Positions 1,882-56,100 of a DNA stretch of 64,000 bases are shown in pieces. Position 1 is the first letter of the stretch; each line of letters opens with the position of its first letter. The notes beneath the pieces were generated by a model. The model worked only from the letters and a program-made list of their open reading frames with translations, had not been told where the DNA came from and made no database searches. Origin of the DNA: Tetmemena sp. SeJ-2015 (lineage: Eukaryota; Ciliophora; Spirotrichea; Sporadotrichida; Oxytrichidae); assembly GCA_027382625.1 (NCBI GenBank), contig JAJKFJ010021742.1, positions 1 through 64,000 of the forward strand, in the 5' to 3' direction. The position numbers and the translations under genes were made by a program.

Positions 1882-3542
1882 GGGGGACGGAAGTGCACCT
1901 CCCCTCTTTTTTTTATGATCAAAAGTGCGAAAAAATAGTACATATCAACCGAAATCGGCATAAAACGCTAAAAACTTAAGAGTTTTTGGCCTTTGAAATT
2001 TCCTTGAGGTTCAAATTTCATGATTTCAATTTTTAAAAATGATATATTTTTTTTTTATTTAAACTAATTTGAAGTCTACAAAATGATTTTGGGATTTCAT
2101 CTCCTTTTTATTAACGAATCAATTTCATCATATGATTCAGCTTCTTCAAAAGAGGGATTAATTATTAAATGATCCAAGATAGGGGGAGAAGTTTTGCACT
2201 TAAATTTAAAAATTTAATGATCTTGCTATAATTAATGAATAAATCATTCAAAATTTTGAAAATAGTATTAAAGGCCCTTCTCTTTTTGTAAAATTCAGAG
2301 TAAGAGAAAAAATACTGCAATAAAATTAATTTATCCCCAAATTTAAAATTTTTACTTACAAAAAATTCTTCTTAAGAAAAATACTTTTAAAAAAGAGGGG
2401 AATTTCTCTAATTAGAGAAACGATAGATTTTTTTTTTTTGGTCAAAGGAAGATTTTAAATTTTTAAGGGAAAACAAACCCATGGAAAAAAATTTTTTTCC
2501 CCGCCCCAATTTCTCCAAAATTTAAAAGTGCGCATTGGTGGCAAAAAGGTATTTTTGGGGGGGCCCAATTTCAAAAAATTTTGATGTGAAATCTTGAAAC
2601 TTAAAAGTCCCAAATGAGGAAAAATTAAAATTTTTTTCCTTTATCCTGCAAAGAAAATTTAAATTTGGGGGGTTAAAGGGGTGGCACTTCCTAAAACTTT
2701 TTTGCGAGGGATTTGGGATTTTTTGGGAAACGGGTTTTAAATTACTGATAAGGGTGACACACCCATCCCTTAGATAAAAATAAAACTGGAAAAGGGGGGT
2801 TTAGTTATTTTTGAGTTTTTTTCGCGTTTAAAAATTAAAAAATCTTTAATAAGTGTATTTTAACATTTTAAATGAAAAAATTTAAAAATATTAAAACAAT
2901 TTTTTTACTTTTTTTAAAATAAATTTTAAAATGGGGTTTTGATTATACAATAATGCCTCTCCTTCATAAATGGTGTAATTTTATCGAATCAGATTTCAAG
3001 GCTCTTATTTTCAGAAATTGGGAATACCTCTTTTAGCATGATTATGATGTTATGAGTAGTTTACTTTTGTGTGCCATTAAGTTTTCTATTTAAATAATGT
3101 ACTGAATTAAATAAACGCTAACGAGTAATCTAGAATAGTTGTATTAATGCAATTTATAACAAGTAATCAATTCTTAGTTTTTAACCTTTAAAAAAGCTAA
3201 GCCTTAAAATTTCTAAAGTAAGTGATTCCTTGTCAAAATAACTATTGCTTTTCGATGTAAAATTTTTTCCTTAAAAAATACATTATGGCGGAATTAGACA
3301 TCAGCACCTATTTTCCATTATTTTAATTTGATTCTAACTAATTACAATTATTAGAACTATAACATAATACAATTCTAAAGAAAATAATATAAATACAGAA
3401 GGAGAGTATCTATTATCTTTATGCTGAAAATAAAAATAATTAATTTAAAAAATTGCTTAATATTTAAATTAAATACTAATACTTGTTATTTAGTACTAAA
3501 CATTTGGAAAAGGAAAAATTATCCATATATTGTTAATTTCTG
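1882..3542. other. Intergenic or IES sequence, no gene seen
   Basis: The stretch is AT-rich with scattered short G/C runs (around 2500-2760) of the same distorted look as the first kilobase. No reading frame supported by a paralog, no RNA gene and no recognisable mobile element are visible. Confidence 0.5.
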
Positions 3543-4023
3543 AAAGTTATTAATTCTCAATTATCATGGGGCACTAGGATCTTTAATTAACTAGCTATAC
3601 AAGAGAAACGATGATTCCTTGATTTATTAATAAACTTAGTTTCTTGCAATTAATTATCAGTAAATACTTTTAAAAAGTTTAGAGTTAAAAAAAGTAGATA
3701 TGTAGGAATAATTTAACAAAATGTCTGCGATATTTACCAAAAGTCTGTAAAAGAAAAACTTAGTTTAATGGATATTTGTACATGTCTACTTAATTCTTCT
3801 TATGTCAGAGTAAACACAAGGAGTATACAACTATTTTTATAAACTGCTTTGAAAGGAAGTTTCCAATGCTCTTTGGAGGGTCAATTACCGATTACACTTC
3901 AGTTACTTCAGTTAATTAAAAAGATAAAAATTAATCATTCAGTTGCTATTGACTCAAACTCAAATGTACCAAAACAATTTCTGTTTTTATCCTTATATAC
4001 TTCTACAGATAGCACTACCTTTT
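3543..4023 (+). repeat. Direct repeat D1, copy 2
   Basis: This is the second copy of the repeat at 1393-1881 and is the cleaner of the two. It lies directly upstream of the R2 repeat at 4108 and holds the first exon of gene 1. Confidence 0.85.
3721..4023 (+). CDS. Gene 1 first exon: signal peptide
   Basis: The start ATG at 3721 follows TTTAACAAA, identical in the duplicate at 1564. The N-terminus reads MSAIFTKSLQKKNLVQW and then a hydrophobic run IFVHVYLILLM followed by SEQTQG, consistent with a cleavable signal peptide and entry into the secretory pathway. A frame break follows near 3850. Farther on, VAIDSNSNVPKQFLFLSLYT is typical of a beta-propeller strand in this family. The start was chosen because it is conserved in both copies and precedes the hydrophobic segment. 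The 3' exon edge was not fixed. Confidence 0.55.
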
Positions 4024-7000
4024 TAATTCATTTATTTAAATAAAAATTGTTTATAATCATAAAGACTAAGATTCGTAAATTTCAAACAATCTAATTCTAT
4101 AGTAAAAATTTTAATTAAAATCGGTGATTGGCTAAAATAAAAAATGGAGAATTGCAACTTCGTGTTAGTTAAAATCTTTCAAACAACCCCTAATCAGCAG
4201 CTCGTTCGATAGCTCATTAAAATTAATATGAGTTTTTTCTTTAATCATCTTCGTAGCACCTCTCAACAGTGAGATATGACTAATGCATTCTTTATCATCC
4301 TCATCGTTTATCAATCCCTCATCCGTCCATCTTCATTAACTAATATGTTGAGTGTCGCTTAAATTCTTTAGTAGAGTGCTCCACACAAAAAAGTATTGCA
4401 AAGGATTAAAAAGTTTCTTAGAAATTCCATTGCTGAATTCAAATGGTAATAGATTGATTATTTGAGAATCTGACACACTTCAACTGCCACTCCTTTACTA
4501 TTCCATTATAATTTAATATCCAATTTAAATTCTCTTTGTTATTAAATTCTCAGGCTATATTATTGTATTACGTTTGTAATTTTTAATAATTTTGCTTTGC
4601 ATTTTGAAATTTAAATATATAGAATTTTATTGAATAAAAAAAAAACTAATCTAAATCCCATAATTCTTGGAATTACTTCTCTATCTTTATGAGACCCGTA
4701 GTGATCGGCTTTAACTTGACTCTTCTACGGAAAAGATGATATTATGGGGCTATTCTTTCACATCCACTTAATATTTTTAAGTCTCAGAGGTTAAGAAAGT
4801 TTTATTTAAACCTCAAATATAATGTTAATGTATGAGTTCTTTTCAGCTAGGAAGAGTCTAAAGTATATGTAGCCATGACAGATACTTCAAACATATATGT
4901 GTTTCAATCTAGTTCTGGAGTCAAGTTGGTAATTCTTCCTTTGCTTATTAATCCTTATCCCAGGCTGCTTTTGCATTTAACTAGCTAACAACAAATGCGC
5001 TTACATTTATTTATACTTATCCAGGATATCTATCACGTGAATATATTTTTCTAGCTTGATAACAACCTTAATCTGTACGTCTCATTTAGACAGCCTACTC
5101 AGACCACAACAACAACTTCGGACAAACTTGATAAAAAGGGCAAAGTCGTGGGGACAATCACAACCACTTCAACAGTCGCCGGTTAGGGCTGGAATCTAAT
5201 TTTATATTTTTTCATCTTATTGGCTTTTCGGTTTCATATCTGGCAGCTACGTCTATCGCACCATTTAAAATACAGTCGAAATTTATTTCAAAATTTTTGA
5301 ACAAGCAGATTACAGGTTCCTCCAATCTCATTATCTATGTTTTTATACATTTCTGAGATAGCATTTAATACCAACAGAGATATTCTATACTAGACTGGAC
5401 TATTGCTTCATAAAGCTTCAAATGTGCTCTATCCTTCAATCGTAGGCAGTGACCTTAGTACGGGTCCTAGCAGAACCAATACTACTTTCATTCAAATGAC
5501 CAATCTTGACCTTAATTCATAATAGAATAAATTTTCATACTTAGGCACAAAGATAGACTGCATATCTGTTTTTGGCTAAGATATTATCTACAGCACTTTC
5601 GTCAAAAGCATTAATTAATTATTGCATATTAAAACCTATTTTTTAGCAGCTCTACTACGTATAAGACAACTTTTGTGCAAAAATAATATTTATTGCAGAA
5701 GGTAACTGTCAGTCTTAAATATTTTGTGTAGAGCACTAAAACTATGTAAGAATTACTACCATATTTAATTCAATTATAGATAATTAACTTCTAATGCAAA
5801 CATTTTAGCCATTATTTTAAGAATATTAAGCATTAGTCAATTATTCTTAAATCTACTAAATCAAATAATCATTAAAAAAATGGGCATGAAGTTATAAAAT
5901 ATTTTTAGATAAATTCACAGAAATTCTCTAATTTTATTGAAGATCTTATTTCAATTGTATATTTACTATAAAGCTGTTTCAATTTCACAAGTATATCTAA
6001 TGGGAGATGACTATTTAATAGATAATTTGTTTTATGACGTTGGAAGCATGCAGATTGGATTATTTCTAATAGATTTCGCAGCCTCTGCAACCTAGGCTTC
6101 TATCAAGTAGAAGATTTTTAATGGATACTCCTTATCTACCTTCTACACTCATGCTGCACTTACTTTTGTGAACTTAAAATTAATGAGTTTTAACTCTCAG
6201 CCAGTCATGTACTTTGTTGGCAAGACCTCTAACTACTTTATTTATCTTCATTATTAGAAATATAAGTAGCAAACTATTATAATTTAAGCTTACTTAATAA
6301 GTTATAATAGCGGAAACAGTATCACTTTTACACCTGGCTTGCTATCTTCCACAGAATAGAGTGCCCATTGCTTCTCTTAATCAATTTTTGAGCAGGCCTT
6401 TTTGAGTGAACTATAATTTTGTTCGATTTTTAACTGAAGACGTACACGACAATTATGTTCCTGAATACAGACAAATCTTTAATTACTTATTCTTTGGTGA
6501 CTCGCATCCAAACTTCTACTGAGGCTGGAATCCTAGCCGTTTCAACTTCTAAGAAGATACTTTGTCCAGCCTATCAAAAGCTAATTGCGTACACTGATGC
6601 GGCCCAATATACTTGCTATGCTTCTGGAGTTGCTTAAGACATCATCACCACTAAGCCATTCACATTTGAGTCAAGCTTATTAAAATTAAACCTTGTGCTC
6701 TGATCTAACAATAACTTACACTATTTAAACAGCCAATCCTTCTATTTTCTCTCTTGATCCTTCAACAGGGATAATTAGTTGCACAGCTCCTACAACTAGT
6801 ACTCTTGGGACAATTACTTTAAAGCTTATAGGGACTGCTTCTGTTTCAACACCCCATTCAACTTATGGAGCATTAAGTCCCCTCACCGCCTAAGTAACTT
6901 ACACAGTCAAACTAAAATTATTAAATTAGAAAGTTAGTGAATAAATGTCCGCAAATATTGCAACTTACGGAGGAATCTCAAGTCACTTAAGATACCTACT

Positions 7001-29500: not shown

Positions 29501-30115
29501 ATATTTAATTTTTAAGAAGATACTCAATTCATTGCTACTAATCTAATTATTTAAATATCCTGATAATATAGAACCTCAATCTGTGAATTAATTTCCTGAT
29601 CTAGCACTATAAACTTCTTTAATACCCCAAGTTTAATACTTTTTGATCGGCAATATCTCTTACCCAATAGATCTCAATATAATTTTATTTATTTCACTCT
29701 TTATATTACTTATCAAATTTGATAAAAATCTCAAAAGCAAAGTGATTTATACTTTAACAAATCCTGCAACCTCAATATCATTAGATGGAATAACAATGCA
29801 AAGTTGCGATGACTTCTAACCTTCACTTGAGTTAGCTGCTACAAATCCAAGTGCACGAGTTCCCTCGTTTTTAAAATTAGTAAAGGACTAATTCGGAGGG
29901 ATGACTTTTCAAGCTGGAGAATGTATTTATTTTTGCTTATTTGAGGTTCTGATGCAGTTAAAGGCGATTACTCTGTCATTTTAAAGGTCACTTTAAATGA
30001 TGGCTCCTAGTATGCTTACACTATGTAGAATTTTAATAAAAAGAGAAATTCAAATTTAGAGTATTAAATTAAGAATGGAACATCAAGTACAGTTGAAGTG
30101 TGTCAGATTTAAATT
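23565..30115 (+). CDS. Gene 3: propeller-like and CADG segments on the plus strand, no membrane core
   Basis: Scattered plus-strand segments share the family style: PTYFGMSMSDDGVRYVIFME (23.58-23.66 kb), GSAYMVGMSDKVETTKYFIL (26.59-26.65 kb), FVADYDNSRIIYGYEQGGAL (29.05-29.11 kb) and one CADG domain (29.6-30.1 kb). Large AT-rich blocks lie between them. No signal peptide, membrane core or tail was found on this strand, so this may be an unfinished or truncated gene, or inverted MDSs of gene 2 or gene 4. The 3' part is duplicated at 47.5-48.9 kb. Confidence 0.45.
25755..26420 (+). CDS. Unassigned coding-like stretch
   Basis: Two overlapping plus-strand frames are open without TGA: SVVPTISFGKRKVEFKRQQQ to DKILKEKKLQIT, then YYLKKNFISKIVDPYYISAS, SLKFSSKYQITLDLKKRDQP, GYIESFLYSQGHQTFLLLLS and SLIQDQISNFRLKDPHILFF. 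The base composition of 25.92-26.26 kb is less AT-rich than the surroundings. It does not look like CADG or propeller sequence, and no family was recognised. With a single stop codon such lengths can arise by chance. Confidence 0.3.
26700..29040. other. AT-rich block, probable IES content
   Basis: No supported coding sequence was found. There is an AGT/AGC trinucleotide-rich patch near 27265-27320 and otherwise A/T-rich sequence. Confidence 0.4.
29041..29225 (+). CDS. Gene 3 propeller-like segment
   Basis: The plus strand reads FVADYDNSRIIYGYEQGGAL, KHKAFNMICSNYMALIKPYK and GNFYNYQIYFLFLGCSADEL, then TGA. The 'DYDNSRIIYGYEQG' strand-turn-strand fits a propeller blade. Exon edges are unknown. 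Confidence 0.45.
29640..30115 (+). CDS. Gene 3 CADG domain, duplicated in gene 5
   Basis: The reading is LTNPATSISLDGITMQSCDD, FQPSLELAATNPSARVPSFL, KLVKDQFGGMTFQAGE and, after a frame change, SDAVKGDYSVILKVTLNDGS followed by QYAYTMQ. It aligns with LGITLDNCNDLQLSFQLISS and ADYNLNLVVEINDGSQYSFP of gene 5 at 48.4-48.9 kb. It is a complete cadherin-like domain, with no membrane segment following before the R2 repeat at 30140. Confidence 0.7.
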
Positions 30116-30139
30116 AATAATTAACACCATTCGATTCAG

Positions 30140-30440
30140 CATAAAATTATTAGGACTTTTTAATCCTTGCAACTTTGTGTGGGAGTGGACTCCATCAGAG
30201 AGTATAAGCCGACATAGTTAGATGAAAGATGAAGCATGATGATGAATGTATGAAGATGTGCGCATCATATCTCGCTCCCCTCGCGAAAGAGCTATGAAGG
30301 TGACTCAAGAAGAAACTCATATTAATTTTGTAATAAACTATTGAACAAGCGATGATAGGGCGAATCTTTGATTTTAACTGACACGAAGTTGCAACTCTCC
30401 ATTCTAATTAATTATAACCAGATCACCGATTTTAATTACA
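30140..30440 (-). repeat. Dispersed repeat R2, copy 3, inverted
   Basis: The reverse complement matches 4108-4420: AAAATCGGTGAT, GGAGAGTTGCAACTTCGTGT, AATATGAGTTT, GCGAGATATGA, and AAGG-ATTAAAAAG at the far end. It sits between convergent genes 3 and 4. The corresponding spacer between genes 5 and 6 does not show it, so it arrived after the tandem duplication or was lost from one copy. Confidence 0.75.
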
Positions 30441-30859
30441 AATGTCCTACCTATATTGAATGTCAGGTGTAAGACGAGGAGGAGGACTGAGATAGTAGTA
30501 ATGGCGGAAGTTGGAGTCGCGCCTCTCCGCTTCAGGAGGAACTTTTACACATATTGACTAGGAAAGATGGTTAGTTAACGCAACAAGTTAATAACAAGAG
30601 TACTCTCGAGTCTTCTTTACAGTTTGGCTGATTGCAAAGTCACTTATTCTCTTATATATAAAAATGAGAAGAATATAAGTTTTAGATGAGTAGTTAAGAT
30701 ATTTAATCAACAAATATATGAATTTCATTTATCTCGAATCATTTTTGTAGTGTGATTAACTCACTTTCCTTTTATCAAGCAAAGTAGTTATTCGATTTTA
30801 TTTGTTCCTTCATGACATCCTCAAAAAATATTTAAATTCAAATTTGGCTAATGAAGAAG

Positions 30860-34200: not shown

Positions 34201-37200
34201 AGCATAATATAATGCAAAACCGTATGAAATATTTTGATAAAAATATTGTTTTATTTTTTTCCTCATTATATTGAGGAAGGAATTAAATCAAATTGCGAGA
34301 TGTCGATTAAAGCTGAATAAAAATAGATAGTGTTTGCGGGAAAGTTCTGCGTCAAAAGTGGTAAATGGACTAATACTTGCACGACATTTATCATTCCCCA
34401 AAGATACTGCAAAGATGCAGACAAGAAAATGTTTGAAAACATTGACCCATAAACTACTGCATTCAGGCTGGCTATGATTCCACCCTAAATGCTTTTCATA
34501 GTTTCTGATATGCCTATTAAAATTAATTCCTAACTAAAATACCATCATTTCTCAATTAAGCAGGAACAGCTTTAAAAATTCGATACATCTTCTTAAGGTA
34601 CTTCTTTCTTTCCAAATTTGTTATTATTCCCTCCTTGATGAAAGTAACAGAAAGCAAATCCCCTTTCTAAAAATTTTATAAAAAGCATACCTTACAGTTC
34701 TTGACACCTAATCTGGGTCTTAGAATTAAATTTGCAAGCTTAGTATTCTCTAAGATATGCTCGTTACTTTCCAGTTAAATTTTAAAGATTAAGATTTTAG
34801 CGTTCGAGAATTAAGTATATCAATCTTTAGCACTTGTTCGTTAAATTTGTCTATACTTAAATTTGTATTTAAGTCTGGTTCAATATAACTAACTATAGCT
34901 TCACTAAAAAGTATTTGAACTTATCCTTGAACAGATATGCTCTTGATTTTCGCAGTTATGAAGTCTTGATCTATCTAAGTATCATTTTAGACTGGCTCTG
35001 TTGGAATGTTACTGTTACCATTATCAGGAGGTATATTAGTTATTCCTATAACTGTGACTTATTGGTAGTATTTGGAGAATCTAGGATTTGGATTTAATTA
35101 AATTAAAATTGTCATCAATAAGAACTATTTTGATATTCCAAGTTAGAGAAGGAAAATTTTATATTTTTAATTTACTGGCGGCGAAAAAGTTAAGACTGGA
35201 AATGTACCTTCTATGAAGTATTTACCTAGTCCGTAGTCTATTTAATATAGTGAAACTGAATCACCATCTTCATCCATAGTTGAGAGAAAGTTAAGCTCGA
35301 CTTAATTTTTTTATAAATCACCTGCCTTAACAATTATTTGTTCTAGAGGAGAGACAAAAATAGGAGCAGCAAGATTTTAGCATTTGAAATTAACTCTTAC
35401 TGGAAGCGAATCTGAAGTTACTCCAGTATTTTATGAGCCTTAAGTTCCTCCTGTTTTTGTAATTATAAAATAATATGAATGTCAATGTTGTAGCTTATAT
35501 TTAGAGATCTTGTACTCCAGCTAGACAATATATATTTTAAATCTTGCTTGGAATTCGATTGTATTTTCAAAGCTAATCCATTCTTTGTATTTACGATTTC
35601 AAATCTTTAAAGCAAGCATTTTTCGCAGTATATTTAATAATCTATCTTGAAGGATAATGTACACTTATTTTTCCTCCTAAAAACTAGAGAAATATTCTCG
35701 CATTTCTCCTGTATTTATGTAATAAACTATTTCTTGATTAAACTTCTGGAGATCTTCATTGGTAGGCACTAAATTAATGCTTTCGCAAGAAGGAACTATC
35801 GAAACTTAAAATTACTTATAGTCAACTGTTTAAGTTTAGGCAATAACTATGACAAAAATTTAAATCTTCTACCCTATGTTGCTATTCTAGGCATTAAATG
35901 AAATCTTATATCCTTAAATCTAAAAATTGTGTAATTTTTTGCACTCTATGATAGCGTTGTTTATTGAGCAAGCTGCTTAATAAGTAATAGGCCCACAAGC
36001 TCCAAAAGATTTCTCTAAATCAGCGTAATTAACTTCACAAATTATTTAATTGTAGATAAGTTATAAATTGCAGGAGCTTTGCATTATAAATTCAACTATA
36101 AATCTAGATCACTTATATAGGAGGTAATTTAATCGCATGGGAGTGAAACTATTAGATAAATAGTTTGATTCTTGTTGTAAAATTCATTAATACCAACCCA
36201 TTGATCGCCATTTAGTACGTAGGTGTATTTCCCAACATCTAAAATTTAATTATATAAATCTTTTTGAAGTAATTTTATAGAGAAGTAGAGAGAAAGAATT
36301 TAGTAGAAGATAATTGTTATCACTCTAAATTTAATTTTTGCATTGAAATTATATTTTTTATGATAATTTAATATAAATCTCATTTTATAGAGTTTCAAAA
36401 TACTTAAAATAATTGTCAAATGGTTTGGATTATATCAAAATTTAAAAAGGTCTATTTTCAGACTTATGAAATAAATTAATTTTTAATTCAATGAAATAAA
36501 TTTTTTAAAATAATTTCCTTTTTTAAATGATCTGGTATCTCGTGAAATAAGGATTAAAAATATAAAGATTAATAAAATATTAAGAAGCAGTAAATATGTT
36601 TTATTAGCTAGAACATAAAAGTTAAAAATAAATACAGGGTAGTGCAATCAAATATTATAATTTGCCTTCAAAGTATGGAAATAAGGATATTCTATAAAAA
36701 ATCTTAATGGCTAATGCAAATTGTGCTGAGGATGGATGTACAACTCTTTTGAAAAACAGACTTGATAAAAGAAAATGAATTCGAAAATAGGAATAAAATT
36801 GAACTTGTTGTGTCACAGGACTAAGAGGTGCTGGACCAGAAAATTTAATCTTTAATTCGTGAGAAGATTTTAAGTATATATTAAATAATATACATTATCC
36901 CAGTTCCGAGGTTCTTAGCTACGATAACCTCTATCTCCAGATATTGACAAGTGAAAAATGAGTCATTCTTATCTCTAACATTTTACATGAAATACTTATC
37001 TGTAAGGATTATATGTATTTAATATTTGAAAAGTATAAATCGTTATGCTCAAAATATTGCTACACTCTTTTACTTTATTTAATAAAAATTTAATTAAATA
37101 TACAACTTTAATTATTTAAAGCATATGTAAATAAAAATAAGCACATTTGGGATTTGAGTATTGCCAATCTATAGCTTAATAAATTGCTTAAGTACTGATA

Positions 37201-40200
37201 ATGAACATAATGACTCTTTCATTTTCGAATTAAATAAGGTCGTTGCCGCATTCAGAGTCAATATTAACCTAAATGGTGAATTAGGTTAAAGAAGCTGATT
37301 ATAAAATATAAAGATTATTATGCCTTAATATCCAAAATATATATTTAGGGTACTAAATACTCATCTGAAACTGCAGCTTGTAAAACACTAGTTCCTGACT
37401 GCAAATTAAAATTTCTTGGAATTTCACTAGAGCCATTGACAAAGATCAAAATAATTTATAAAGATCAATTCGAAGGTGACTGCGCATATTTTAGTTTAGA
37501 GGTAATCCATTAAGTCGATTGCATTTGTAAGAACAGGATAATCTTCTGCCAAAAGATCTAATTAATAATCATAAGGTTGGTCAATTGCTCCTTCTGCTTT
37601 ATATAAGGGATAAGAGTTGCAATCAGCCTGGATTGTGAGGGCAATAATAACGTAATCAAAAATAAATCAGAGGATTCGTCTCCCAGAGAGGCTAAAATTA
37701 AAAAAATAAAATGTATTCTATTTACTTCGAAAATATTTTTAAAATGAATATATGTTATTATTTTAAATAAGTTAGAATTGCAACATTATTTTTAATGAGT
37801 ATTATGTTTTCAGCTTTGTTTTTCAAAATTTTAAACTGATGGAGTGACTGTTGACCTACGTTAACGGAGAGCAGGCTGAGTTTCCTGATGGAGCGTTCCT
37901 GATATAGTGGCCGTTTTTTTAAAAGTTCTATATTCTCGCCGAAATTTAATTGAAAAACCGAATTTTAATAAAATAATTAAGAACATCTCTAAACTTTTAA
38001 ATTTACCGGATTCGTTTATTCGTTTAAATTAAGGCGTACCCATCTCTACGACCGCACCTGAATTCCCACTAATCCACCATTCCACCGCAACTAAACTTAG
38101 AGATCAGGTCCACCAGGGTGCCACCGCGGTCCAACATGTACGATCTCGCCTCTAAGCGCTAACAGTATCAGGAAGCCGGAGTGTGATCCATGGCCAGTGC
38201 GGAGTGCCCCCAGGGGCGAGGGTTCGAACCCTGCTGGTGACCAGAGACGGTTTTGCCTGTGTGAGACGGTGTTTACAGTGAGGACTTGGTAAGGATGAGT
38301 AGAGCGGCAGGAGAAGTGAGGGACGGTTCTAAGAATCACCGGCAGGGTTCGAACCCTCGCCCCCTGGGGGCACTCCGCACTGGCCATGGATCACACTCCG
38401 GCTTCCTGATACTGTTAGCGCTTAGAGGCGAGATCGTACATGTTGGACCGCGGTGGCACCCTGGTGGACCTGATCTCTAAGTTTAGTTGCGGTGGAATGG
38501 TGGATTAGTGGGAATTCAGGTGCGGTCGTAGAGATGGGTACGCCTTAATTTAAACGAATAAACGAATCCGGTAAATTTAAAAGTTTAGAGATGTTCTTAA
38601 TTATTTTATTAAAATTCGGTTTTTCAATTAAATTTCGGCGAGAATATAGAACTTTTAAAAAAACGGCCACTATATCAGGAACGCTCCATCAGGAAACTCA
38701 GCCTGCTCTCCGTTAACGTAGGTCAACAGTCACTCCATCAGTTTAAAATTTTGAAAAACAAAGCTGAAAACATAATATTGAGTGGCTGTTAATATATTAT
38801 TTGTTACTTAGATCATAAATTAAAATAAATCTAGTATGAAGGTAAAACATCATAATTCGTATAGTCCGCCTATATGTAAAGCAAGCCTCCAATTAATTAG
38901 GCAGGTGGGAAAGGCAGAGCCTAACTTGGATTTTAAACTAAAAAGGCATCGTAAATATTTTATATTGCAAGCTAAAAATTAATAGAAGATTTATTTAGTC
39001 CCAAATTAATATTTATTTATTTCCTTTATTTGAAAAGTATAAGTTTTATTGTTATGATAAACTTAGGTTTTCTTCTGTAATTTTTAATTTCAAATATTTT
39101 AAGAAGATTTTCATTAAGTAAAAATAATTTTTTAAAATTCATTAAGATTAATTCTTCATTTAATATCTATCAATATCTAATAAAAACTCTTCAATTAATG
39201 TATCTATCTATATCAGTCAATTAAATTTCATATTCCTTAATTAAATTAGCTATAGAATATATGTACTAATATACGTTCAGCCCCGATTTTTCAAAAATTT
39301 TCAGTCTCCTTCTGCAAAGCCTGGACAGCGAGGGCGAAGCTCTTGTCAATCTTTGTTAAAACTTGATACTGTAAGTGCTCTTTTTCGGCCAAGTATTGCT
39401 AGAGAATTTTTTTTTTTTAAAAAAAGAGGCAATTTTACCTTATTAAATCCCACAACTATAGGGAAATTTATGGATTTGAACATGCCAATCATGGATGTAT
39501 TTGAAGCCACTTCTCTAAAGATCAGTAAAAATACTTTTAAAAATGGCCAATTACTGGAAAAGCTGGATTCCTAGCCATAAGTGAAAAATCGTGGCTGAAC
39601 ATATAATATTTTATTATATACTGATAAATATTACTTTTTAAATTAGCAAATTATTTTAAATCGTAAGAGATAAACTTAAATTAAGTTTAAATATTTCTAT
39701 TCATAATTGAAATTAATACCATAAAATATTAATGGCATCTTTATATTTTATGACTAGAGTTGTATAATGATTAATTTGTAAATTAATATATCAACCTCGG
39801 TTTTTTAAACCGATTTTTCTAACTACAAAATAATGCTTTGTTTCACAATTACGTCAAGAAGGAATTTAGTAAATGCTTGGCATAAATTAAGAGAAAATTA
39901 GAAACAATCCTTTTTTATCTTGATTTTTTAATTTACAGTTTTATTTAAACTGTTAATATTATTTGTTCCTTTGTTAATTTTTTTAATTGAAGTTAGTTTA
40001 TTATTGTCATCCCGGAATTAAAGTAAAGTAAAGTAAAGTAAAGTAAAATATTAGGAATGTAATTAATAATCAATTTAAAAACCAGCACTTATTCAGTACT
40101 AGTTTGAAAATCGTACTATTATCCTATGTAACCCGGAATTAAAAAACACAACTGCCACATTTTTCGGGAGTGGAGACTTAGAAGTTGGTTTCCGGGAGTT

Positions 40201-43200
40201 CGAAAGAAGAGAGGTAGCTGGGCCAAGATTCAAGTTTTAGTAGCCTGGATTCCTCTTTTACAACATTTCAGAAAAGAAATGAGAAGGCAGTTAAATGAGG
40301 AATATATCAAATTCCATTTCTAATTCAAATTAATTAAAAGACGTTAAATATTAAAATTCCATGTTGGTAATATTATAATTTTTGAGTTTAGTTTGCGGGC
40401 ATAGTTCTAGATCGTAAGTTGTTGCAAAGTAGGCAGCAATATTTATCGAAGTTGTACCTGACTGTAAAGTATAAGTATTACAAAACATAAAACTAATTAA
40501 TAAAATTAATAAAATATTATCTACTATCAATAAAAGGTTTTATTACTGGAAGATTTATAACAAATATCTTATTTGTTGTGCAATCTGGAATCATCAATAA
40601 TTTTAGGGAGCTCATTACTGATATATTCTTCCCCAAAAATGTGTAATAAGAATAGATTAATAGCTCATTTTTATCACCAAGGCCTTACTATTTAAAAACA
40701 TAGATCTATATTAATCTTTTTGCCATAAATTAAGATTATATTAAATATAAATTCCTCAAAATTAGGTATAATTATTATTTATAGATTGAAAACAGTTACA
40801 AGATATAATTATTGAGATTTTAATTAATCACAATATGTAAGTTTAGGGTCATTTTCGTTACAATTTAAGCTAAATTTTGAATACCTTCTCCAAAAATGCC
40901 TCTTTTTAATAAAATAAGCTTTTATATTTATGTAGTTAAGGAAACTATTTAAACTCTACAACTACAATGAAAGTTTGGCATAAAAATAGAAATGTTAAAA
41001 TTCTCTGTTGTCTTTTATTTTTCTCACTGAGATCTTAAAAAAAGAGTTTTCTGAGTAATTTCCTAAAAGAAATCTTAAACTGAATAACTCGCTTAATGAA
41101 TCATAAATGATTGTTTAAATCCTCTACATTTTAAAATGATATTTTATTTAATAACTATTTGGATACATCAATCTGTATTTTATCGGATAATATATTGAAG
41201 GGGGAATTTAACATATCGAGCGTTTAGTTATATTAGTCCAGAAATTCATATTGCAAATTAATCTTTATTTTTTAAATATTTTTTGAGAAGTTAATATATT
41301 ATGTTACAATTGCCCACAGTCAGAAGTAGTGTTTAATTGGACAGTTGGAAATTAAACGTAAATAAATCCACCTGCATTTTATAAAACTCTCACAGGATCT
41401 GGAGTAGATATCACTGTGAGAGAAGCGTAGTAGCAAGGATTTATGATATTTACTTGGATAGGGAAAAATTATATTTAGTAGTTTTAGATTGTTGAAACCT
41501 CTAAATAAATAGTAGTTAATCCTAAGTAATCCAAAACGTTCGTATAGATCTAAAGATATATTTTATTTTATAAATTAAAATTACTTAAAATGTTTAGAGA
41601 AGTATTTCAGATCTTTGAGAATTGCTCTTTTTAATAATTTAAATTGCCTATATTTATCTTTTAAGATACTCATTCTTTCTATAATTTTAGAGAAAAAGTG
41701 TACTATAGTATAGAAAATATTTTTCTTTCTGCAATTTTAAACTAGATATTTTGAATTTTATCTTAATTTGTCAGAGTAATTTACTGAGAGAAATAAAATC
41801 TAAATTTCAGTGTTTTTTACTTTAATTACTCATTATTATTTGTATTATCTTAAAATTTAGAAATTAAAGAGCTCCATCTTCCATACTGTAAGAAAATGGA
41901 CTGCCAATAAAAATAATATCAGAAGATTCTACATCAGCGGTAGTGCTATTGAGACGTACTTAAACTGAAAGGGGCATACAATCTTGAACTATAACACTGA
42001 ATTTAATACTGAAACTGAAAGTTTAACCGAGTAGATATTCTAAGGGCAAACTGCTTTAATCATAATTAGCAGTAATCTGGCACGGATTATATATATTGAT
42101 GGCTATAGCTCTTTATGTAGTGTTTATTATCGAATTCGGACCTGGTATGTTCGATTAAACAGAAATTTGATAGGAGTATTCCACAAGTTTATCAAGACTT
42201 TTAATAAAGAGAAATCCATCTTTTTAATTCACATCGAAGTTAGCTACTTCGCTGTTATTTTAAAATAAAAATTAAGTTATCTGTAGAATTCCAAAGCTCA
42301 TAAATTACATAAGGATTGCAAAGATAATCATCGAAGCTTAAGCCAACATCAAGGATTTCATAATCTTATTAAACTTGTAAGATAGAAAGATTTATCGAGG
42401 CTTGAGAATTCTTAAATTCATATCCATAGTTAACGCAAATAAAGATTTATAGAAATATTTATTAGCAATAATCTTGTAGAATGAAAGTAAAAGAATAAGT
42501 AAAAGAAGAGATTGAGCCTTTATTTATTTTAAAATCTACTTGCCTGAGACTGAAGCCGTTATTTCTATGGTGTAAGATCCTACTAAATCATCGGTGAAAT
42601 CATTAGGACCTGTAAAAGCAGGTGCTTAAGTATTGGTGAAAGGAACTACAATAGTATCAAAGTGGCTACTGTCAGACTGAGATGAATAGAATTATAAATT
42701 AATTCGAAGAAGATTCGATAAAATGTTTTATAAATTCTATATATTATTCTAAAAAAATATCTTATAATGGGGTAATAATAATTTATATGCTGTTTATCCA
42801 GATGGACGCTTAAAAATTGGACGGCTATCTTCCTTATTCTAAAATTATTTAATTCTACTTTAATGCTTAACTTGGGTATTTTGTTCAGTATGCTTTGACT
42901 AAACTTATTTTCCATTGATAATTGGAGGAGATAATTAAATTAGATACTACCAGTTAAGTTGCACCCCTTCAGCTTGATTTTGCGATATACAACAGCTAAC
43001 ATTACTATGCTTGATATATTTTTATTTTAATGCCTTTGTAGGAATGTCATAAGATAAGCTACTTTTGGATAGTTCTCTCACATAAAATGTCATCTTCTTG
43101 TCCTTGATAAAAATAATTATTTTATTGTCAATTATTTAGACCTAAGTTTCATTAAATTTATATTTCATTTAGAAGAAAACATAATTTAATATAGAACATT

Positions 43201-53100: not shown

Positions 53101-56100
53101 CAGAACTATTTTGATTTTCCAAGTGAGAGAAGGAAAATTATATTTTTTAATTTACTGGTATTGATATATTGAAATCTGGAAATGTCCCTTCTAAAAATTC
53201 CTGACCAGGCCCAAAGTCAATTTTTGATACTGTAACTTAATCTTCATCTAAGTCCATCATAGAGGGAAAGTTAAGCTCTACTTAATTATTTTATTAACCG
53301 CCTGCCATAACTTTTATGGGTTCGAGAGGAGAGACAAAAATTGGAGCGGCAAGATTTTAGCATTTAAATTTAACTCTAATTGTAAGAGTATCTGAAGTAA
53401 CTTTAGTATTTTAAGTTTATGTAGTGGTTTTCGTTTTAATTATAAATATTATATGAATGTCGAGACAAAAGCTTAGATATAAAGTTCTTGCACTCCTACT
53501 AAGCAATATTTTATATTTTTAATCATCCTTCTGATTTGATTGTACTTTAAAAGCTAATAATCCATTCTTTGTTTTTACCATTTATAATCTGTTATTCAAG
53601 AATGAATCACAATAATACTTATATCTTATATCAAGATCTAGAGAACATGGATTATCACTTTAGAAGTTTGAGAAATATATTAACATATCCCCTGAATTGA
53701 TGAAATAAACTACTTCTTGACTATATGTCTATAAGTCAACAGAGCTAGGGACTAAATGCATGATGCTTGAGCAAGATGAAACTATCTACACTAAAAAGGT
53801 AGCAGTATCCATGTAAAAATATTATTAGTCACTTGCTATAATTAGAATTTCAATTTTCTGCCCTATATTACTCTACTAGCCATAAAATGATAATTTATTT
53901 CCTTTCATCGAAAATCTCTACAACAAAGAGCATTCTACCGCAGCGTCATTTATTGAACAAATTGGTTCTAAAGTTATACCCCCGCAAGCTCCATAGGAAC
54001 TATCTTTAATATCGAGATATTACACTTCGCAAATTTTTAATTTATAGATAAATTAAAATTTCAGAAGCTTTGCATTCGTAACTTGGCTATAAATTCAGAT
54101 CACTTATTTAATAGAAAATTTCATCACAAGGAAGTGAAACTATAAGATAAATAGTTTGCTCCAAGATGGGAAATTCCGATGCCCCAATTTTTGAATATCC
54201 TTATAGCACATATCAGTACTTTCCAACATCTAAAATAATTCATTATAAATCCTTATAGTTGAGATCTTATTTAACATAGAGAGTGGAAGTATCTAATAGA
54301 AGGAAATTGTTATCTTCCTAAATTAGTTTATATATCTTAAAATTTGAAATTATTTCCTTATCAAATTTATATAAATTGAAATAATTCAAACAAAACTAAT
54401 CAAAACTTATTTATTATGTTGTAAATTTATTTTAAAGTAATAAAATATAACAACTATTATACAATTTTTTTTAATTTAATCAATTGTGAAATAAATAAGT
54501 TTCAAGAAAATTTAAATAAACTAAATGATCTTGAAGCTTGTGAAATAAGTATCAATAATTAAAGATAATTTATATAATTCAAATATTTATTATAAATTTT
54601 AAAATAAAGAATGGTTATTAAATTTAGTTAAGATTTAATCACTCAATTTGCTTTGCTCTTAAAAATAGAATTAGAGTTAATTTTATATATAATAATAATA
54701 TAGGTATGAAAATCCAACATATCATAGATAACCCTACCTAGAAGATATTTAGGCCAATTAAATCTAATTCTCAAAAATAATTAATAAAAATTATATATTT
54801 ATGAGGTTAAACTTTAACGAAAACCTTTTTCTAATATTGACAAAATGTTAATAAAATATATGGTTAATTTGAAGTTTATTATTGTATAATTTATAGAAGT
54901 AAAGTTTAACCCTGATCTTAATTTTATTTATCATACAAATTTTACTTATTTATTAAAAAACATTGATGTGTTAAAATTTTAATTTAAAATAAGCGCATTT
55001 AGAGTCTTAGTATTGCCAATCTATTGTCTATAAAAGTTTGGTGGGACCGACAAATTAAACTAACACTCTTTCTTTATTGAATGAGATCTTGTCATTACTG
55101 CATTCTGTTATAAAATTTACCTAAATCAGAATATCTATTGACCCTGCTTATAAAATATAAGTATGAAGTTCCCAATATATGCACCAACAAGCTTTAGGGC
55201 ATGGTAATATCATCTGATAGCGCAACCTGTAAAATACTAGATCCTGACGCGATTTAAAAATTGCTTGGAGCTTAAATGCCATTAATATCTGAGATAGAAG
55301 CAATTTTTTAATAAATAATTATGTTTAAAGAGAGTTGGAAGGTTACAGGGCAAATCTGTGTTCTCAGCTTTTTCTTTAAGTCAACTACATTTGTTAGAAT
55401 AGTATAATCCTCTGCCAAGAGATCAAACTTAAAATCATAATCTTCTCCTATAGCTCCATCAGCCAGTTATAAGGGATAAACTGCGCAATCTGCCTTGATA
55501 TTAAGGTCAATAATTACGTTATCAAAAATAAATCAGAGGAAATGCCTCCAAGAGTGGACAAAATAAATAAAATCAAAATGAATATTATCAGAAAGTGTAT
55601 GAATATTAAAAATGTTATTATTGTAAAGAAGCTATAATTCTACAATTTTAAAGTGCATAGAGTGGCTGTTAATATATTTTTGTTACTTAGATCATAAATT
55701 AAAATAAATCTAGTATTTAGGATTGACATCATAATCTGTATGTCTCCTTTAATGTAAAGCAGGCCTCCGACTAATTCGGCTGGTGGGTTAGTCAAAGGCA
55801 AATTTGGATTTAAAAATGAAGCATCGTAATTAACATTATATAAATACAATTAATTTTACTGCGATAATTTTGATTTTAATATTTTTACTTAGATAATTTT
55901 TTATTTTCTTCACTTTTTCTTATCTTCATTTAAAAAATTGTATGATTTTTGAAAATAATTTTAGTTAGTTCTTTAGAAATCGTAAGTTAGTTAATTCTCA
56001 ATAATTATTTTAATTCAAAAATTAATATATATTGGCTGGACTACAAAAGAGAAATTTCTTAAAATAATTATTTTTTTCTCATTATAGAATAAAGATACAA

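Follow-up and report, generated by a model that had tools for sequence, protein, structure and literature searches.

How did one spacer in a set of tandem gene copies come to hold a palindrome of almost 1 kb that the corresponding spacer of another copy lacks? The question is raised by a 64,000-nucleotide stretch of germline DNA of the ciliate Tetmemena sp. SeJ-2015 (contig JAJKFJ010021742.1, positions 1 to 64,000; hereafter the window), in which an earlier note had described a recent foldback insertion in the copy called gene 4. Having searched the whole germline assembly (146.2 Mb, 5213 contigs), we consider it likely that the palindrome, 978 bp long, arose when a non-autonomous, foldback-like MITE of palindromic structure entered an existing spacer of gene 4 at a TA.

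Anatomy of the palindrome

Self-comparison of the window places the whole palindromic element at 37800..38777 (unstranded; 978 bp, the TA at either end included). Its perfect arms, 37800-38216 and 38361-38777, are complementary at 417/417 bases (100%). The extended arms, 37800-38240 (left, + strand) and 38336-38777 (right, inverted, - strand), are 99.5% identical and are separated by an oriented loop of 95 nt (38241..38335, +). These coordinates and identities bear out the near-perfect 978-bp palindrome that had been described as lying wholly between the pointers. With arms of 442 bases and a loop of 95 bases, the element has the long inverted arms and short centre of a foldback. The terminal block, beginning with TATTATGTTTTCAGC at 37800..37830 (+) and repeated in inverted form at 38747..38777 (-), is common to subfamilies A1, to which the window element belongs, and A2. 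Towards the centre, GGTTCGAACC is present in the left stem (38221..38230, +) and in the right stem (38346..38355, -), and the loop carries a motif, GACTTGGTAAGGATGAGTAGAGC (38283..38305, +), that is found at 66 genomic places with at most two mismatches.

Long reading frames are open on both strands of the element if TAA and TAG are read through, but they lie within the palindrome. Both codons are present inside the Pfam-matching DDE_3 frame (2 TAG and 6 TAA) and MT-A70 frame (2 TAG and 4 TAA) of the same genome, which indicates that they are read as amino acids; each of these frames has a single homologue, in Oxytricha trifallax, with 35% and 56% identity, respectively. No conserved protein was found inside the 978-bp element, where, to our knowledge, a reading frame of transposase length is not to be expected, and no homologue was found for one ORF of the window.

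The stem sequence GGTTCGAACC, which we take to be similar to a Pol III B box, together with an A-box-like TGGTCTAGGTGGCTAGGAT seen by eye in three family members (L048, L050 and L085), prompted the idea of a tRNA or SINE origin. ARAGORN and Rfam did not support it: the former detected no tRNA either in the window or at 22 loci, and the latter none in window positions 37000-39500 or in 12 locus scans (L052 being scanned twice). A tRNA-Glu-like pattern had 0 genomic matches and likewise missed the host's own tRNA gene. The Rfam matches to microRNA families were all below gathering scores, and we read them as matches to a long hairpin, not as membership.

The spacer and its empty paralogues

The element lies between two copies of a pointer-like repeat, AAAATAAATC, at 37659..37668 and 38822..38831 (both +), which bound a putative IES. 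These repeats start 1163 bp apart in gene 4 (37659 and 38822) and 176 bp apart in gene 6 (55525 and 55701), in agreement with the interval lengths given previously; the gene 6 spacer (55525..55710, unstranded) is bounded by the same repeats but does not contain the element, and self-comparison of the window confirmed that gene 6 lacks the palindrome. On the 3' side of the junction, mismatches between gene 4 and gene 6 are distributed as in coding sequence (third position 27, first 20, second 12), whereas the 5' side has no coding bias (8, 12 and 9), and the frame of gene 4 shifts relative to gene 6 near 37465 and 38868. Given a coding signature downstream, none upstream, and these frame shifts, the interval between the AAAATAAATC repeats is plausibly, though not certainly, an IES. 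Since the frame shifts are common to a further copy on contig C2036, gene 4 may be a decaying copy. Precise somatic joining would fall at GATTTATTTT, without the element. Because the insertion lies inside the pointer-like repeats, removal of the whole spacer during somatic genome formation would still be possible in spite of its greater length; its excision is probable, and the insertion may be harmless. We also observed that gene 4 and gene 6 do not differ at the right end of the spacer (38780-38831 versus 55661-55710; 50 aligned columns, with 2 gap columns), where the adjoining sequence has just 64-76% identity.

The assembly-wide search for copies and empty sites that the earlier note had proposed returned many family members as well as empty paralogues of the gene 4 site. 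The right flank matched four places: the window copy, gene 6, and contigs C2036 (89%) and C3843 (80%). Our comparison of filled and empty sites covers three of these paralogues, gene 4, gene 6 and C2036. In gene 6 the empty site is at 55656..55657 (+), where CA is aligned with the TA of gene 4. The C2036 copy is also empty, and aligns without gaps across the site once gene 4 is cut down to one TA. The element falls between pointer repeats that the empty paralogues retain, the second repeat of C2036 being imperfect (TAAATAAATC). That gene 4 is filled and the other two are empty at the same place supports insertion into a pre-existing spacer, and the two empty sites bear out the proposal of a foldback-type insertion into one tandem copy with its pointer-like repeats kept. 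The identity of C2036 to gene 4 is 93% downstream, 86% upstream and 79% in the left part of the spacer; the corresponding values for gene 6 are 73%, 76% and 64%, a range (64-76%) that omits the 50 bases at the right end of the spacer, which are 100% identical. As C2036 is empty, the insertion is younger than the split between gene 4 and C2036, unless both empty copies lost the element cleanly.

The pentanucleotide TGAGT, which flanks the palindrome on both sides, had been put forward as a target duplication. We reject this: none of the 33 family copies with both ends has five identical bases directly outside them (0/33; shuffled mean 0.3), and alignment to the empty gene 6 site gives 145 for the TGAGT model versus 154 for a TA model. 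Identity of one outside base (9/33; shuffled mean 7.1) or of four (1/33; 0.6) was likewise close to the shuffled level, and no duplication longer than TA was detected among the 33 copies, so that TGAGT is best seen as a local coincidence. All 33 copies with both A ends read TA...TA, a count that is partly by construction, as the search pattern starts with TA and allows up to two mismatches; in some copies TA is missing at one end, for example at the right ends of L017, L027 and L044. The two positions outside TA favour A (45/66 and 41/66). On this evidence TA is the most likely target duplication, and we infer that it was indeed duplicated, the proposed copies being 37800..37801 and 38776..38777 (both +). 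Both empty paralogues, gene 6 and C2036, have CA instead of TA at the insertion site, and a C-to-T change before the insertion must therefore be assumed.

A repeat family with a common core

With at most one mismatch, the terminus TATTATGTTTTCAGCTTTG occurs 133 times in the whole assembly (71+62), and a reversed-pattern control 0 times. The loop motif (41+25 occurrences) and a second end type, B (16+16), likewise had controls of 0, and a stretch of outer and left-arm sequence had at least 70 matches (best 40 of 205 candidates scored). Close reading covered part of the family, namely 57 loci (L009-L065) together with L005, L066 and L085-L087. Elements with both ends were counted on 58 stretches, L009-L065 and the window, L005 being omitted as its contig ends inside the element; 33 of them have both A ends, and these are 757-1053 bp long. 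The 133 termini against a control of 0, and the 33 two-ended copies, show that the palindrome is neither due to chance nor a single fold-back read. It is confirmed as an inserted mobile element and represents a new member of a known element type. Neither the loop pattern nor the terminus pattern matched any of the viral contigs, a collection from which records of the source genome are possibly excluded, and no published description of the palindromic family was found in titles and the beginnings of abstracts, with thin coverage of subscription literature.

The exact 12-mers that A1 and A2 have in common fall for the most part in the outermost 31 bases, near positions 151-163 and in the central region, where common blocks span 403-444, 479-512 and 558-599 (L019 coordinates); BLAST matches between the two subfamilies are confined to the same three regions. 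The core, consisting of two GGTTCGAACC stems and a loop of about 95 nt, can be aligned across A1, A2 and B elements, while the core of L050 is not alignable and parts of a stem are missing in L060 and L061. The sequence GGTTCGAA[CT]C is present in both arms of 19/22 A1 and 7/11 A2 elements, and the loop motif in 18/22 and 6/11, respectively. At seven loci (L035, L037-L041 and L043), an A1-like interior stands behind B ends. That a core hairpin is common to subfamilies with different termini was unexpected. Such modularity could have arisen by an exchange of ends, followed by copying between arms.

Several other repeats came to light in the course of this work. The window itself contains dispersed repeats (1390-1880 versus 3540-4033) and inverted repeats (1117-1373 versus 40132-40356; 4109-4550 versus 30027-30441), all 72-82% identical. 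The motif CCCCAAAACCCCAAAACCCC stands at the start of nine contigs, which together with the read-through codons and the Oxytricha homologues fits the germline genome of a hypotrich-like spirotrich ciliate; as the motif is the same read backwards, its reversed control carries no information. An array of CCCCAAAA repeats lies well inside a contig (C2828:3805-4156).

Similarity between the arms

Of the 66 arms of the 33 A elements, 41 (A1 24/44, A2 17/22) have their own element's other arm as nearest relative, whereas 300 random pairings yielded 1.5 such arms on average and 9 at most; arms were oriented by the loop, with L050 not orientable. The two arms are mutually closer to each other than to any other sampled arm of their subfamily in 10/22 A1 and 7/11 A2 elements, and the remaining 16/33 elements have no such mutual closeness. 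Median divergence within an element versus that to the nearest other is 2.0% versus 2.1% in A1 and 1.3% versus 6.2% in A2; in the window element, the arms differ by 0.2% and stand at 2.3-2.5% from their nearest sampled relatives. The simplest account, which these statistics support, is that arms would be kept alike by copying between them, although assembly polishing could mimic their similarity. Since partner arms tend to remain similar, the age of the insertion is not to be read from their identity, which in palindromic elements makes a poor clock. The earlier description of the insertion at gene 4 as recent is thereby weakened: what the data show is that it is younger than a duplication with flanks 79-93% identical.

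Two of the loci, L062 and L066, are one locus present twice. One of their flanks is identical at 279/280 positions, while the other matches well only over the roughly 65 bases adjoining the element (63% over 200). The arms of L062 differ at 1/440 positions and those of L066 are 82% identical over 420 columns, with 40 gap columns, so either L062 has been homogenised or L066 has been altered. At L048, the palindrome continues for 278 bp beyond the element ends, and we considered whether arm copying might here have run on into unique flanking sequence. That sequence, however, proved to be another abundant palindromic repeat, so that L048 lends at most weak support to arm copying. This flanking repeat (L048:731-1008 and 2026-2303; contig C1770) ends in GGCCTTTCCTCGAC and has at least 69 matches in the assembly (best 40 of 644 candidates scored); it has the element at its centre, and the two halves mirror each other over 740 bases.

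Fold-back copying from arm to arm would allow a terminus gained on one side to spread to the other, and by reaching the second side in this way a new terminus could let the module change its transposase. One may speculate that a functional hairpin core is conserved across subfamilies whose arms have otherwise diverged, while arm copying spreads new termini around it and permits such a change, the germline-limited core module perhaps giving rise to a long hairpin transcript; we put this forward tentatively, and find it rather doubtful.

Transposase partner and alternative explanations

A Tc1/mariner-type transposase acting in trans would recognise the inverted TATTATGTTTTCAGC ends, and the element, cut out elsewhere, would be pasted into the gene 4 spacer with duplication of TA. 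The transposase is probably of this type, and the same genome has at least 150 matches to DDE_3, which is Tc1/mariner-like (best 150 of 499 candidates scored). An autonomous element with these ends was not found: among the 100 of 133 termini on which pairing was judged, there were no inverted pairs beyond about 1.1 kb, save on contigs with separate copies, and in 12 DDE_3 loci (L067-L078) no inverted A or B end pairs surrounded the transposase at up to three mismatches. Like a MITE, the element has many dispersed copies with the same ends, and inverted terminal repeats. At 978 bp, and with A copies of 757-1053 bp, it exceeds the size of less than about 500 bp given for MITEs in the available part of one source (PMC9942856). 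It works like a MITE, yet is large for one.

A stretch of 4.76 kb (L066:257-5016) was rejected as the autonomous partner, as it is a B-type palindrome with a nested 3.8-kb transposon that has other ends; L062 is the same site without the latter. The nested transposon (L066:424-4223, contig C3550) has an AAT duplication and carries a DDE_3 transposase as well as a frame for MT-A70, an adenine methyltransferase; the protein closest to the latter comes from Oxytricha (MT-A70, 56% identity). By eye, DDE_3 and MT-A70 lie on the same strand, transposase first and 0.1-4.5 kb apart, on 10 contigs (C3550, C3160, C1766, C1688, C3239, C4460, C1969, C3266, C2050 and C1657), and on opposite strands on C3493. 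The genome has at least 142 MT-A70 matches (best 150 of 187 candidates scored).

Three other origins of the palindrome were weighed against a MITE insertion. It could be a solitary terminal repeat, itself palindromic, from a large Tc1/mariner transposon similar to Thon or Sardine, instead of belonging to an independent MITE family. Its anatomy fits the palindromic terminal inverted repeats of Paramecium, which measure 425 and about 700 bp and have an oriented, unique sequence at the centre, and solo Thon repeats are known as IESs of 512-770 bp, in the accessible portion of that study (PMC3464196). No transposase flanked by a pair of palindromes was seen, however, within the part of the genome that was read; the listed termini pair only about 0.75-1.05 kb apart, and on C2227 (L024) a pair of copies at a distance of 2.7 kb surrounds what appears by eye to be a cellular MORN-repeat gene. 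We consider this origin unlikely. Still less probable, in our opinion, is an element already present before the tandem copies arose, with precise losses in gene 6 and C2036. Elements of the cut-and-paste type are able to excise from a site, but two copies of different age (C2036 at 79-93% identity and gene 6 at 64-76%) are empty with no visible footprint, and one gain is simpler than two clean losses. An artefact of assembly or of a fold-back read is hardly credible: palindromes do assemble poorly, and several family members stand at contig ends, but the same ends and loop recur at many independent loci, the loop is a unique sequence of 95 nt, and the left and right flanks differ. Insertion of a non-autonomous MITE thus remains our preferred explanation.

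Comparison with known systems

The comparison of one filled and two empty paralogues captures the entry of a transposon into a spacer already flanked by pointer-like repeats, a step assumed by models of IES growth. The work also delimits a family built around a conserved core, and opens the way to a search for its autonomous partner and its transcripts. Compared by description, the element has the long inverted arms and short centre of animal and plant foldback elements, which have longer target duplications and internally repeated arms. Among spirotrichs, TBE ends carry telomere repeats and make a three-base duplication. The element resembles TBE and Tec elements in its germline-limited, probably Tc1/mariner-type context and differs in having no genes that were found, while those carry genes in the available text of the Oxytricha/Tetmemena comparison (PMC9797194). 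The same text suggests that TBEs may favour making new junctions over entering existing IESs (PMC9797194).

Entry into a pre-existing IES is possibly also the history of Anchois in Paramecium, which differs in being autonomous, 3.6 kb long and bounded by short terminal inverted repeats without internal palindromes, in what is accessible of its description (PMC3464196). In Blepharisma, MITEs are known both as IESs and nested inside IESs, and the available part of that work describes BogoMITE and MITIES, like the window element, as non-autonomous inverted-repeat elements that are germline-limited, some of them nested in longer IESs (PMC9942856). BogoMITE, of about 389 bp, duplicates TAA/TTA, is C-rich at its end and has a Pogo-type autonomous partner according to the same portion (PMC9942856), unlike the window element, whose duplication is most likely TA and for which no partner was found. 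The terminal repeats of Sardine and Thon in Paramecium tetraurelia, and the solo-Thon IESs, have palindromic arms and a unique oriented centre as well, and solo Thon repeats occur at unrelated germline sites in a Tc1/mariner context, a likeness that rests on the accessible published description, not on sequence (PMC3464196). In contrast to Thon and Sardine, no transposon body was found between two palindromes, and the Tetmemena element, of about 1 kb, combines one core with two kinds of ends. The palindromic ends of Thon and Sardine and the MITE-IESs of Blepharisma would nevertheless appear to be its closest kin, and the best name for it is a non-autonomous palindromic MITE, probably of Tc1/mariner type.
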